Source of the DNA: Collinsella aerofaciens
Lineage (GTDB): Bacteria; Actinomycetota; Coriobacteriia; Coriobacteriales; Coriobacteriaceae
Assembly (NCBI RefSeq): GCF_015557435.1
Contig: NZ_JADNOH010000003.1
Coordinates: 1 to 38,962, forward strand
DNA: 38,962 bases
Direction of reading: 5' to 3'
Shown here: one piece after another, positions 1-13,698 of the stretch
How the letters are laid out: every line of letters begins with the position of its first letter
How positions within the stretch are numbered: position 1 is the first letter of the stretch
Program-made: the position numbers and the translations under genes
Notes under the pieces: model-generated
The model's database searches: none
Seen by the model: the letters and a program-made list of their open reading frames with translations, nothing else
Told to the model about the DNA's origin: nothing

Positions 1-103
1 AGGCATAGACCTTCTGGTCATGCCTTGCCTTTTGAATGACAAATTGTCGCTCTGGGTGGCGCGCAGCGTCGACCGGTCCGTCGTTCGTTAGAACGGCGGA
101 ACC
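1..103. ncRNA. Structured repeat element, copy 1 (cut by window start)
   Basis: The first 25 bases fold as a hairpin: 1-6 pairs with 20-25 and 8-11 with 16-19, with one bulged A and a TTCT loop. A second hairpin pairs 78-86 with 91-99, flanked by 75-77 with 101-103. The same layout occurs at 12989-13092, where stem bases differ in a compensated way: the outer A-T pair of hairpin 1 becomes G-C, GACC/GGTC becomes GGCC/GGCC, and the second hairpin keeps its stem with different bases. The sequence between the hairpins is also similar, including the shared stretch GCAGCGTCGA. It abuts the 3' end of the epimerase gene. The 5' half lies outside the window. It could be an RNA, a transcription terminator or a palindromic repeat; the strand is not settled. 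Confidence 0.45.
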
Positions 104-104
104 T

Positions 105-998
105 CTAGAGCAGGGTGACGCTAAAGGAACGGATGTCGGTAGCGCCCGGTGCCAACGTGATGGTGTTGACCTTGTGATCAAAGACATCGTCCTCGGTGTC
201 CATGGTGGTGTGGCCGGTCCAGGGCTCGAGCGCCACAAACGGAGCGTCGTTGGCGGCAGACCACACGCCGATGTACTTAAAGCCCTCAAAGTCGATCTTG
301 ACGCCGTGGCCCGACTTGCGGCCGCGCAGCGTGAGCGTGGAGCCCGGAGTATCGGTGAACATGATGGCATCGTTATCGAAGCTGCGGTGCGTGATGGGCA
401 GCACGTCCGAGTTATCGGGAGCCTTGTAGCTACCCTCGAACGTCATGAGACCGTCGGGCGTGATGATGGGAGCCTCGTTCGTCCAGGCCTCGGTAAACGC
501 CAGCTCGTAATCCTCGAATACCTCGTCCTCGGCACCGGGGGCGGGCACGTTAAATGCGGGGTGGCCGCCCACCGAGAACGGCAGGTCCACGTCGCCGGTG
601 TTCGTAACGGCAAAGGTCTGGGTAAGCGTGGCGTCGCCGGTCAGGGCATAGGTCATGTTGAGCTTAAAGTGAAACGGAAAGGCCTTGAGCGACTCGGGCG
701 TATCGGTGATCTCGTACGTTACCGAGGAGCCGTCCTCCGAAACCTCGACCAGCTTGTGCTCGACGATGCGCGCGAGTCCGTGGCGCGGCATCTCGCAGGT
801 GCCGGCCGCAGACGTTGCCGTGTTGTTGCGCAGCGAGCCCACAATGGGGAACAGGATGGGCGCATGCTTGCCCCAAAAGGTGGGATCGCCCTGCCACAGA
901 TACTCGTTGCCGTTGAGGGCAAGGCTCGTGAGCTGGGCACCCATGGAATCGATGGCCGCGGTGAGGCCGCCGCGCTTGATGGTAGTGACGGTGGACAT
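105..998 (-). CDS. Aldose 1-epimerase family protein (LacX/galactose mutarotase-like)
   Basis: The 297-residue product looks like the LacX/YphB branch of aldose 1-epimerases, which interconvert alpha and beta anomers of aldoses or sugar phosphates in the cytosol. A GGHPAF motif near the middle carries the conserved histidine. A later LEPWTGH segment carries the likely catalytic glutamate. The ATG at 998 is chosen because GGAGGAAG lies five bases upstream; a longer frame starting at 1022 has no such site. The stop codon touches the structured element at the window edge. The gene lies 79 bases downstream of the membrane-anchored unknown protein on the same strand, so the two may be co-transcribed. 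The exact sugar cannot be read from the sequence. Confidence 0.85.
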   Translation of the reverse strand: MSTVTTIKRGGLTAAIDSMGAQLTSLALNGNEYLWQGDPTFWGKHAPILFPIVGSLRNNTATSAAGTCEMPRHGLARIVEHKLVEVSEDGSSVTYEITDTPESLKAFPFHFKLNMTYALTGDATLTQTFAVTNTGDVDLPFSVGGHPAFNVPAPGAEDEVFEDYELAFTEAWTNEAPIITPDGLMTFEGSYKAPDNSDVLPITHRSFDNDAIMFTDTPGSTLTLRGRKSGHGVKIDFEGFKYIGVWSAANDAPFVALEPWTGHTTMDTEDDVFDHKVNTITLAPGATDIRSFSVTLL

Positions 999-1077
999 GC
1001 TACTTCCTCCAATAGTAAACAACGGTGTCGAGGGCTATTGTCCCACTCTTGGCGGCGGGGTTGAGCGACAGGTGCAG

Positions 1078-11937: not shown

Positions 11938-12754
11938 GGTCAATCACATCCAGGCAGGCCTCGATGGGCAGGCCGGCAGACTTGTCCTCTTGGTCGGCGT
12001 TGCGCTCGATAAGCTCGGCCACTACGCGCATGGCGTCGGCCGTTGCGCGCTGCAGACTCCACCCGGCCATCACGCGACCGACGAGCACCGCCGAGAACGT
12101 ATCGCCCGTACCCGGGAAGTAAACCGGGATCAGGTCGAAGGGAATCGTGAAGTACTCCCCCGCCACGTGGTCGTAACCGATAACGGCGTTCGTGCCGTCG
12201 ACCACAGCGCTCGTAATGACCACCGACTTGGCGCCCAGCGTGCGCATGGCGTCCACAAGGACGCGGGCCTCGTCGGGCGTGATTTGCTCTGCAATAGGCG
12301 TATCGGTGAGCAGACAGGCCTCGGTGTAGTTGGGAACCGCGTAGTCGGCACACTCGAGCAGGTGCCTCATGAGGCCGATCGTGGACTCGGGCACACCGGC
12401 ATAAAGCTTGCCGTTGTCGCCCATGATGGGGTCGACGAACACCTTGGTGCCCTTTTGCGCGCGACGGTGGCAGAAATCCGAAATGATACGCGTCTCTTCC
12501 TCGGTCACGATAAAGCCAGTCGAGATGGCGTCGAACTCAAAGCCGAGTTCCTCCCAGATGGCGAGGCTCTGACGCACGTACTCCGTAGTGTCGTGGATGT
12601 AGAACTTGGGGTAGTTGAGCGTATCGGACACAAGCGCCGTCGGCAGGTTGTGGATACGGTAGCCCATGTGCGACAGCACCGGCAGCATGGCAGAAAGCGC
12701 GACCTTGCCGTAGCCGCACATATCGTTGATCAGCAGCAGCTGAGTGTTCTTCAT
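11930..12754 (-). CDS. PdxY/PdxK-like pyridoxal (pyridoxamine) kinase
   Basis: The 274-residue protein is a ribokinase-superfamily kinase of the pyridoxal kinase group, which phosphorylates vitamin B6 vitamers using ATP. The N-terminal NDMCGYGKVA loop and the LPTALVSDTLNYP segment are typical of the substrate side. VDPIMGDNGKLY and the C-terminal PGTGDTFSAV anion-hole motif with its catalytic Asp are both present. ATG 12754 is supported by AGGGGG seven bases upstream; a longer frame to 12823 is not. The small TIGR04076-type gene overlaps its 3' end. A related substrate (hydroxymethylpyrimidine) cannot be excluded. Confidence 0.88.
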   Translation of the reverse strand: MKNTQLLLINDMCGYGKVALSAMLPVLSHMGYRIHNLPTALVSDTLNYPKFYIHDTTEYVRQSLAIWEELGFEFDAISTGFIVTEEETRIISDFCHRRAQKGTKVFVDPIMGDNGKLYAGVPESTIGLMRHLLECADYAVPNYTEACLLTDTPIAEQITPDEARVLVDAMRTLGAKSVVITSAVVDGTNAVIGYDHVAGEYFTIPFDLIPVYFPGTGDTFSAVLVGRVMAGWSLQRATADAMRVVAELIERNADQEDKSAGLPIEACLDVIDHE

Positions 12755-12879: not shown

Positions 12880-12910
12880 TGATCCCTTTTCCTCCGTCCC
12901 CAAGGGATCA
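12880..12910. repeat. Short hairpin TGATCCCTT/AAGGGATCA
   Basis: Bases 12880-12888 pair perfectly with 12902-12910 around a 13-base C/T-rich loop. It lies upstream of the kinase gene and before the structured element. Its role is unknown; it could be an operator for the minus-strand kinase gene or part of the larger folded region. Confidence 0.4.
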
Positions 12911-12952
12911 TTGGCACGAGAGCAATGCTGCAGATAGAGGACGGACAGCGAA

Positions 12953-13092
12953 AACGTTCCTAAGCGAGCAAGGTGGCGTGAAAGAGGAGGGCATAGGCCT
13001 TGTGGCCATGCCCGACGATTGAACGCCAGATTGCCGCTTAGGGACGTTTGCAGCGTCGAGTGGTTACGGCGTTTGGTAAAACGCCGTAACCA
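12953..13092. ncRNA. Structured repeat element, copy 2 (candidate structured RNA)
   Basis: The region folds into a long rod. Stem A pairs 12953-12966 with 13035-13048, 14 pairs including one G-U. Stem B pairs 12974-12979 with 13023-13028. Stem C pairs 12989-12994 with 13008-13013 and 12996-12999 with 13004-13007, with a bulged A. A separate perfect 14-base hairpin follows (13061-13074 with 13079-13092). Stem C, the downstream strand of A and B, and the last hairpin are matched at 1-103 with compensating changes. It ends 15 bases before the -35 box of the MarR operon. It may be an RNA or a transcription barrier; which strand is transcribed is not known. Confidence 0.5.
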
Positions 13093-13107: not shown

Positions 13108-13170
13108 TTGACAATTATTTCTTACGCTCCTAGATTAGTTAGGCACAAAACAATCCCACTACCTAACTAA
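13108..13170 (+). promoter_or_regulatory. Promoter and MarR operator for the marR-ABC operon
   Basis: TTGACA (13108-13113, a perfect -35) is followed after 17 bases by TAGATT (13131-13136). An inverted repeat TTAGTTAGG (13135-13143) with CCTAACTAA (13162-13170) starts on the -10 box and covers the expected start site. Half-sites of this kind are typical of MarR-family autoregulation, so the MarR protein encoded just downstream is the likely ligand. Confidence 0.75.
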
Positions 13171-13191: not shown

Positions 13192-13698
13192 ATGTGCGAT
13201 GAACCCCTTAACCTTCGTCCGCACGAGCCCGGCGGCGACCCGTCGCAGCCGGCAGACGTGCCCGAAGCAGTTAACGGCGAAGACAGGCTCGCCAAACGCA
13301 TCCTGAGCGGCCTGGGCTTTTGTGGCCACTACATGCACTTTCACGGCGGCGGCGTATCCGGCAAGGCACCCATCGTCTGCCTGCTCGCCAAGCAGGAAAA
13401 CGGCGAAATGTCGCAGCAGGAGCTCGGCATGCACTTCGACCTCAAGCCGGGGTCGCTTTCCGAAATCTTGTCCAAGCTCGAGTGCGCCGGCATCATCGAG
13501 CGCAGCCGTAACCCCAAAGATCGCCGGCAGCTCACCATTCGCCTGACCGAGATCGGCTGGGAGAAGGCCCGCATCGACCAAGCCTCGCGCATCCGCTTTA
13601 GGGAGCAGGCCTTTAGCGCCCTCACCCACGACGAGCGCGAGCAGCTCGCCGAGATGCTCGAGAAAATCCGCGTAACCTGGGAGGAACTGGATGATTAA
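13192..13698 (+). CDS. MarR-family transcriptional regulator
   Basis: This is a 168-residue MarR-type regulator. A variable N-terminal tail of about 35 residues is followed by the winged helix-turn-helix, with MSQQELGMHFDLKPGSLSEI as recognition region and the wing around RSRNPKDRRQLTIRLT. These proteins usually repress their own operon and release DNA when they bind a small ligand. AAAGGAG lies upstream of the ATG. The stop codon overlaps the first ABC gene by eight bases, so the regulator and transporter are translated together. The palindrome on the -10 box supports autoregulation. Confidence 0.92.
   Translation: MCDEPLNLRPHEPGGDPSQPADVPEAVNGEDRLAKRILSGLGFCGHYMHFHGGGVSGKAPIVCLLAKQENGEMSQQELGMHFDLKPGSLSEILSKLECAGIIERSRNPKDRRQLTIRLTEIGWEKARIDQASRIRFREQAFSALTHDEREQLAEMLEKIRVTWEELDD

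Follow-up and report, generated by a model that had tools for sequence, protein, structure and literature searches.

Does the strongly folding stretch that stands before the promoter of a marR operon in Collinsella aerofaciens act on that operon as an RNA, or is it part of something larger? The question was raised by a window of 38,962 nucleotides (the whole stretch of DNA analysed), in which the original prediction had placed a candidate structured RNA at 12953-13092, made of a rod and a hairpin, with a second, truncated copy at 1-103. The fold was confirmed, the + strand giving an RNA fold of -87 kcal/mol against a shuffle mean of -44.9 (z -11.8; none of 200 shuffles as good) and the - strand one of -74.3 kcal/mol (z -10.9), and it consists of a rod of nested stems followed by a hairpin (Table 1). 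The positions given for the two copies, before the MarR promoter and at the end of an epimerase gene, were likewise found to be correct. A promoter-like TTGACA-17-TAGATT at 13108-13136 lies between the first copy and the MarR gene, while the copy at 1-103 stops 1-2 bases short of the stop codon of the Aldose_epim ORF and carries the described changes on both strands (GACC/GGTC versus GGCC/GGCC). As for the label of structured RNA, the conservation of structure stood, while the RNA nature was not demonstrated and the locus turned out to be one copy of a dispersed repeat.

Table 1. Parts of the two copies in the window and the adjoining genes.
Feature	Position	Strand	Basis or remark
Left conserved box GACAGCGA (consensus GTCAGCGA)	12944..12951	+	AGCGA invariant in alignment A2; kept in other genera
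Rod: long hairpin with tandem G.A internal loops and C(TTNN)G tip	12953..13048	+	Fold, covariation, loop counts
Right conserved box GCAGCGTCGA	13050..13059	+	Near-invariance, including other genera
Small hairpin with GNNA loop, core GGTTACGGCGTTT-GGTA-AAACGCCGTAACC	13061..13092	+	Fold and loop counts
MarR-family gene, 3' of the first copy (context, outside the element)	13192..13698	+	
Second copy, right part of rod (left part beyond the contig end)	1..59	+	
Second copy, box CGCAGCGTCGA	60..72	+	
Second copy, small hairpin with GTTA loop	75..103	+	
Aldose epimerase ORF (context); stop codon (105-107) abutted by the second copy	105..1022	-	Aldose_epim match

A folded repeat family of the Coriobacteriia

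The stretch at 12953-13092 is one copy of a dispersed family of folded repeats of about 150 bases, for which we use the working name Corio-rod. Within the window's own genome blastn returned 35 matches to it, a figure that includes hairpin self-matches in reverse and whose weakest members are due to chance; nine of these matches are found at contig ends or no more than ten bases from them, and the contig of the window starts within a copy. A covariance model (R1) built from 13 copies of this genome found 50 places in it at E<=0.1. When the model was searched across Collinsella, further covarying copies were recovered, with a match in 38 of 43 genomes (24-47 copies in 23 of them and 1-14 in 15) and none in the remaining 5. 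Over the order, where stricter filters were applied and at most 12 candidates were scored per genome, 100 of 247 genomes and 34 of 99 genera were matched at E<=1e-5, and each of three complete genomes from another family contains 29-36 copies. The family is thus real and order-wide, and on account of this spread it is probably ancient.

A named collection was also searched with the two-box pattern, which gave 80 loci, of which 42 were confirmed by the model and 38, including L310 (Adlercreutzia), failed confirmation. The confirmed titles include Collinsella, Gordonibacter, Adlercreutzia, Enteroscipio, Paraeggerthella, Rubneribacter, Ellagibacter, Eggerthellaceae, Coriobacteriaceae and Atopobiaceae, together with Candidatus Aphodovivens and Aveggerthella, which we take to belong to the Coriobacteriia; all named confirmed matches fall in this class. 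None of the pattern loci titled from other phyla among the 80 was confirmed, and no Corio-rod copy was confirmed in the viral contigs and phages searched. Plasmids gave one match, in a 900-kb C. aerofaciens record labelled as a plasmid, which carries lysS and greA and is probably chromosomal.

Four genomes of one genus in family f5 (G092, G169, G221 and G243) have exactly one model match apiece; a fixed single copy at the same gene there, if true, would argue for function. The loci L016 (C62:33623), L018 (C9:10988) and L027 (C46:37280) share the rod middle and tip with a different outer stem and lack the boxes and the small hairpin, and perhaps represent a sister family.

Identity with the named Collinsella-1 RNA (RF01700), which the original prediction had raised, could be rejected. 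That motif (PMC2864571) comes from the same genus as the window copy and differs from it in sequence and place; the RF01700 model scores nothing at the element, a sub-cut-off 32.9 bits at C6 and 188.8 bits at C53:31874-32067, which is the true Collinsella-1 RNA of this genome (G000). A search of the window against Rfam gave no match, the best lax one reaching 18.7 bits against a cut-off of 47.

The copies follow one plan, namely a GTCAGCGA box, a rod of about 96 nt, a GCAGCGTCGA box and then a GNNA-loop hairpin of about 28 nt, and the same arrangement of two boxes and two hairpins is seen in other genera. The letters of the outer stem vary freely while pairing is retained. The internal loops of the rod are conserved, being mostly GA/GA, GG/GA or GA/GAA; 94 of the 97 rods from Collinsella and 48 of the 70 from elsewhere have a GA...GA loop. 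The rod ends in a C(TTNN)G tip, which takes the form C(TTCG)G in 20 of the 70 non-Collinsella rods. In the small hairpin, GTT...AAC, the loop is GNNA or GNA in 103 of 108 cases and GNRA in only two. It is preceded by CGTC, some bases away and not directly adjoining.

Selection on structure, as originally suggested from two copies, was borne out across an order of bacteria. Among the 13 copies of this genome, 29 of 47 pairs are changed on both sides and 95.9% of cells pair, and none of 500 shuffles reached any of five measures of pairing. The structure used for this count was drawn by hand and so leans towards structure, but it passes a slide control in which moving the partner by 1-3 columns lowers pairing to 29-41%; RNAalifold on the raw MAFFT alignment (A1, partial copies included) had returned 4 pairs only, and the hand structure was used instead. 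The covariation between copies arises partly from the exchange of whole arms or subtypes. At L090 and L062 one arm has turned largely into the exact complement of the other, leaving near-perfect palindromes. This arm correction is a DNA process, as template switching on DNA would do, and it also feeds the covariation, as opposed to stepwise compensation at one locus. A loop inversion of the small hairpin is seen between G003 and G018.

Stop-codon contact and the strand that folds

Most copies sit at gene ends, so that the marR position is one of many and atypical, the main copy of the window being exceptional in having no gene end at its right end. In 98 of 142 copies an opposite-strand ORF of at least 100 codons ends at -12 to +25 of the right end, 97 of these at -4 to +5, as against 17 of 142 in the same-strand control; the copies in different species are partly orthologous and such counts are non-independent, and the ORFs and genes were called by a home-made picker that makes errors. 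Where the gap from the hairpin AAC to the stop was tabulated (115 of 142 copies kept, 27 without a clear AAC end excluded), it was -1 to 5 in 82 of the 89 copies with an adjacent ORF. The abutted genes are unrelated, including those for Hsp90, anaerobic NrdD, serine dehydratase, nitroreductase, short-chain dehydrogenase and others, and an annotated C. aerofaciens record shows a match that stops three bases from the end of lysS. The stop abutted is TAG in 62 of 98 copies compared with 381 of 838 genes in the same windows. By this crude ORF call TAG is the commonest or nearly commonest stop overall (L089-L144, L262-L301), a frequency that seems unusual for fairly G+C-rich bacteria.

The + strand, which is antisense to the gene at the right end, is the one that folds better. 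Rods fold better on it than on the complement in 158 of 163 cases with RNA energies and 157 of 163 with DNA energies, an advantage that we attribute largely to the G.A loops becoming U.C on the complement. The outer stem points the same way: among 133 distinct arm pairs, each counted once (a first count had left out 4 poorly arm-aligned copies), the + strand has 66 G.T against 15 A.C, divided 36:9 in Collinsella and 30:6 elsewhere and significant in each separately. In a tRNA control on the acceptor and T stems of the loci, G.T:A.C was 20:2 in 240 cells. No such excess was seen in the small hairpin (9 G.T, 13 A.C). As it is the antisense strand of the abutting gene that retains the fold, the fold is not maintained for the mRNA of that gene.

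Is this strand then kept as RNA or as DNA? In Collinsella about 25 bases left of the left box are conserved; in the family of G105 and G117 no strongly conserved promoter-like block was found upstream of the left box, where conservation is weak only. In G105 and G117 the crude gene caller has the left neighbour running in the opposite direction at about three quarters of copies, and one copy (G105:1351046) lies inside a tandem gene pair, from which it follows that the folded strand has no regular transcript. Loops of the d(GNNA) and d(GNA) type are a stable class in DNA. We thus prefer single-stranded DNA, because of the missing upstream block, the opposed left neighbours and the GNNA/GNA loops, while the tRNA-like wobble ratio and the UUCG-like tips could fit selection on RNA as well.

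The copies are also oriented with respect to replication. With fork direction taken from the GC skew of 20-kb windows, the faced gene side runs with the fork in 40 of the 42 listed copies (of 61 in G105 and G117), whereas 447 of 686 called genes (65%) are co-directional, giving a binomial p of about 4e-6, or 1.5e-4 if 72% of genes are taken to be co-directional. In G095 one change of strand along the chromosome accounts for 24 of the 26 copies listed, and in Collinsella, where local GC skew on 6-kb loci is too noisy, 33 of 56 copies were oriented with replication. In G105 and G117 this orientation means that the folded strand lies on the template of leading-strand synthesis, where hairpins are least prone to form.

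Turnover at orthologous sites

Both inheritance and change are seen when single sites are followed between genomes. An ortholog in G023 or G000 was found for 22 of the 28 copies in G002, and most copies are therefore inherited and movement is slow. At the marR site, 11 of 20 genomes carry rod and hairpin, six carry parts, one the hairpin only and two neither; another rod subtype is present in G020, G006 and G023. At a second site Corio-rod is present in only 2 of 21 genomes and one genome keeps a hairpin remnant; in two of the 21, G032 and G004, both on short contigs, the stretch is cut or different.

The third site gave the only clean filled/empty pair that we found. Here 11 of 21 genomes carry the element flush after the stop codon, nine are empty and G020 has unrelated sequence, so that an empty ...TAG-GACAG... 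(or TAA-GACAG) can be set against a filled ...TAG-[193 bp]-GACAG.... Two or three bases (TA or TAG) may be duplicated here, the sequence at the far end being CTAG in one genome but CTAC or CTAT elsewhere. No terminal inverted repeats were seen at the copies.

Tandem arrangements occur at L025, L116, L143 and L343, for example two small hairpins of which the second has its own GCAGCGTCGA box, and at L343 two whole elements stand head to tail, 57 bases apart; it is as if elements insert beside older ones. A separate feature was noted at the second site in genomes without the element (L180 and other loci), where another long palindrome occupies the gene end; its arms, CTAAGTGAGTAGACTTTT and AAAAAGTCTACTCACTTAG, are separated by about 110 bases, and it may represent yet another repeat family.

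Mobile element or RNA

Corio-rod looks like an old mobile hairpin and not like a regulatory RNA of the neighbouring gene. Our reading, the likeliest of those considered although the case for and against it is evenly balanced, is that it is a non-autonomous, dispersed, mobile two-hairpin DNA element of the Coriobacteriia, like REP or ERIC. In the mechanism envisaged, the antisense strand would fold as single-stranded DNA, a putative recombinase or transposase would recognise the folded strand through its G.A loops and GNNA hairpin, and this putative enzyme would place copies at gene ends, any effects on neighbouring genes through the 3'-end structure of their mRNA being presumably secondary. 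A broader version is offered tentatively, in which Corio-rod would represent a class of mobile elements targeting stop codons, with a recombinase that reads the folded antisense strand and, across the Coriobacteriia, inserts copies exactly where genes end at their 3' side, in coordination with replication. If true, this would set a hairpin-based system beside IS200/IS605, RAYT/REP and integrons.

Four other explanations were weighed. A transcribed, multi-copy non-coding RNA of about 150 nt, made from the + strand and binding a protein via the tandem G.A motifs, would fit the tRNA-like excess of G.T over A.C, the UUCG-type tips in part of the copies and the order-wide conservation of boxes and loops; we consider it unlikely, given that the upstream promoter block is not strongly conserved in the other family, that the left neighbour is transcribed the other way at most G105 and G117 copies and that the loops are GNYA and not GNRA. 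The element could instead be maintained by the host at the 3' end of the upstream gene's mRNA, for end protection or to slow terminating ribosomes. Its position flush after the stop codons of unrelated genes agrees with this, as does a report that REPs of E. coli within 15 nt of a stop codon stall ribosomes (PMC12306157, in the part available), but the mRNA strand is the worse-folding one (the 158 of 163 above), shows C.U and A.C in place of the G.A and G.T of its complement, and carries the element at the same gene in one species and not in a close relative, which makes a role of this kind improbable. An intrinsic, possibly bidirectional, transcription terminator is suggested by strong hairpins at gene ends and is nonetheless very improbable, as nothing terminator-like was found at the element on either strand (the single match, at 12730, lies outside it), T-runs are absent after both hairpins in the copies read, and the copy at G105:1351046 lies between two tandem genes. 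That Corio-rod is a cis-regulatory RNA of the marR operon, as might be suggested by its place immediately before the marR promoter in this genome and several relatives, can hardly be maintained when it lies upstream of, and not within, the transcript expected from the promoter-like site, when two of the 20 genomes at the site lack it and seven have parts only, and when dozens of copies stand at other genes.

How does a mobile hairpin element of this kind compare with known systems? REPs, as described in the available part of PMC3733652, are likewise palindromes scattered between genes and close to gene ends; the TAG stop codon of a gene often comes from a GTAG REP, and CGTC REPs, recalling the CGTC before the small hairpin of Corio-rod, have no known transposase. 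A REP is a single hairpin of 20-40 bp, whereas Corio-rod joins a G.A-loop rod to a hairpin over about 150 bp, and so it departs from the GTAG/CGTC-tagged type, defined by a single palindrome with an unpaired tag at its end. It departs equally from the RAYT-associated type, in which copies flank a RAYT gene: Y1_Tnp matches were found in 36 of 42 genomes of the genus, but only one of the 27 Y1 loci searched has a Corio-rod copy nearby.

Elements of the ERIC, NEMIS, YPAL and EFAR type are similar in size to Corio-rod. They are named as MITEs in the part of PMC3733652 available and are alike by description, being intergenic, foldable and present in many copies, and the dispersal and variable presence at orthologous sites expected of MITEs were found for Corio-rod. 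It differs in that neither terminal inverted repeats nor a proven target duplication was found, in its order-wide spread and in its position flush with stop codons.

The attC sites of integrons fold on the strand antisense to the gene. They too are long imperfect hairpins after a stop codon. The bottom strands of attC sites in sedentary chromosomal integrons are reported to sit on the leading-strand template (PMC5371416), as the folded strand of Corio-rod does in G105 and G117, with no clear tendency in Collinsella. Corio-rod differs in being dispersed over the chromosome, with no cassette arrays seen, and in having conserved loops in the middle of the rod, where attC has them only at the ends.

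No description of Corio-rod was found in the open-licence literature on repeats and RNA motifs in Collinsella, Eggerthella, Gordonibacter and the Coriobacteriia; a set of palindromic candidates from human microbiomes (PMC8040213, in the part available) could hold the family unnamed. Of the new findings, the strongest are that copies stand flush with stop codons and that the fold is conserved on the antisense strand. With Corio-rod a widespread lineage of gut bacteria would have a repeat family of its own, breaks in Collinsella assemblies would be explained (ten copies here end at a contig edge), and there would be a testable example of a structure maintained on the strand other than that of the neighbour's mRNA. 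Should a recombinase come to light, its placing of copies right behind stop codons would be a form of harmless targeting.

A different palindrome accompanies these elements. The window holds one at 12880-12910, separate from the element and with a GTCCCC loop (TGATCCCTTttcctccgtcccCAAGGGATCA), and GTCCCC/GGGGAC palindromes with variable stems stand to the left of many Corio-rod copies. A RAYT/Y1 transposase was considered as the mover of Corio-rod and no link to it was found, the RAYT-like Y1 transposase genes examined in L215, L218, L220 and L223 being flanked by TGTCCCC palindromes instead. These GTCCCC/TGTCCCC palindromes look like the REP family of the genus.
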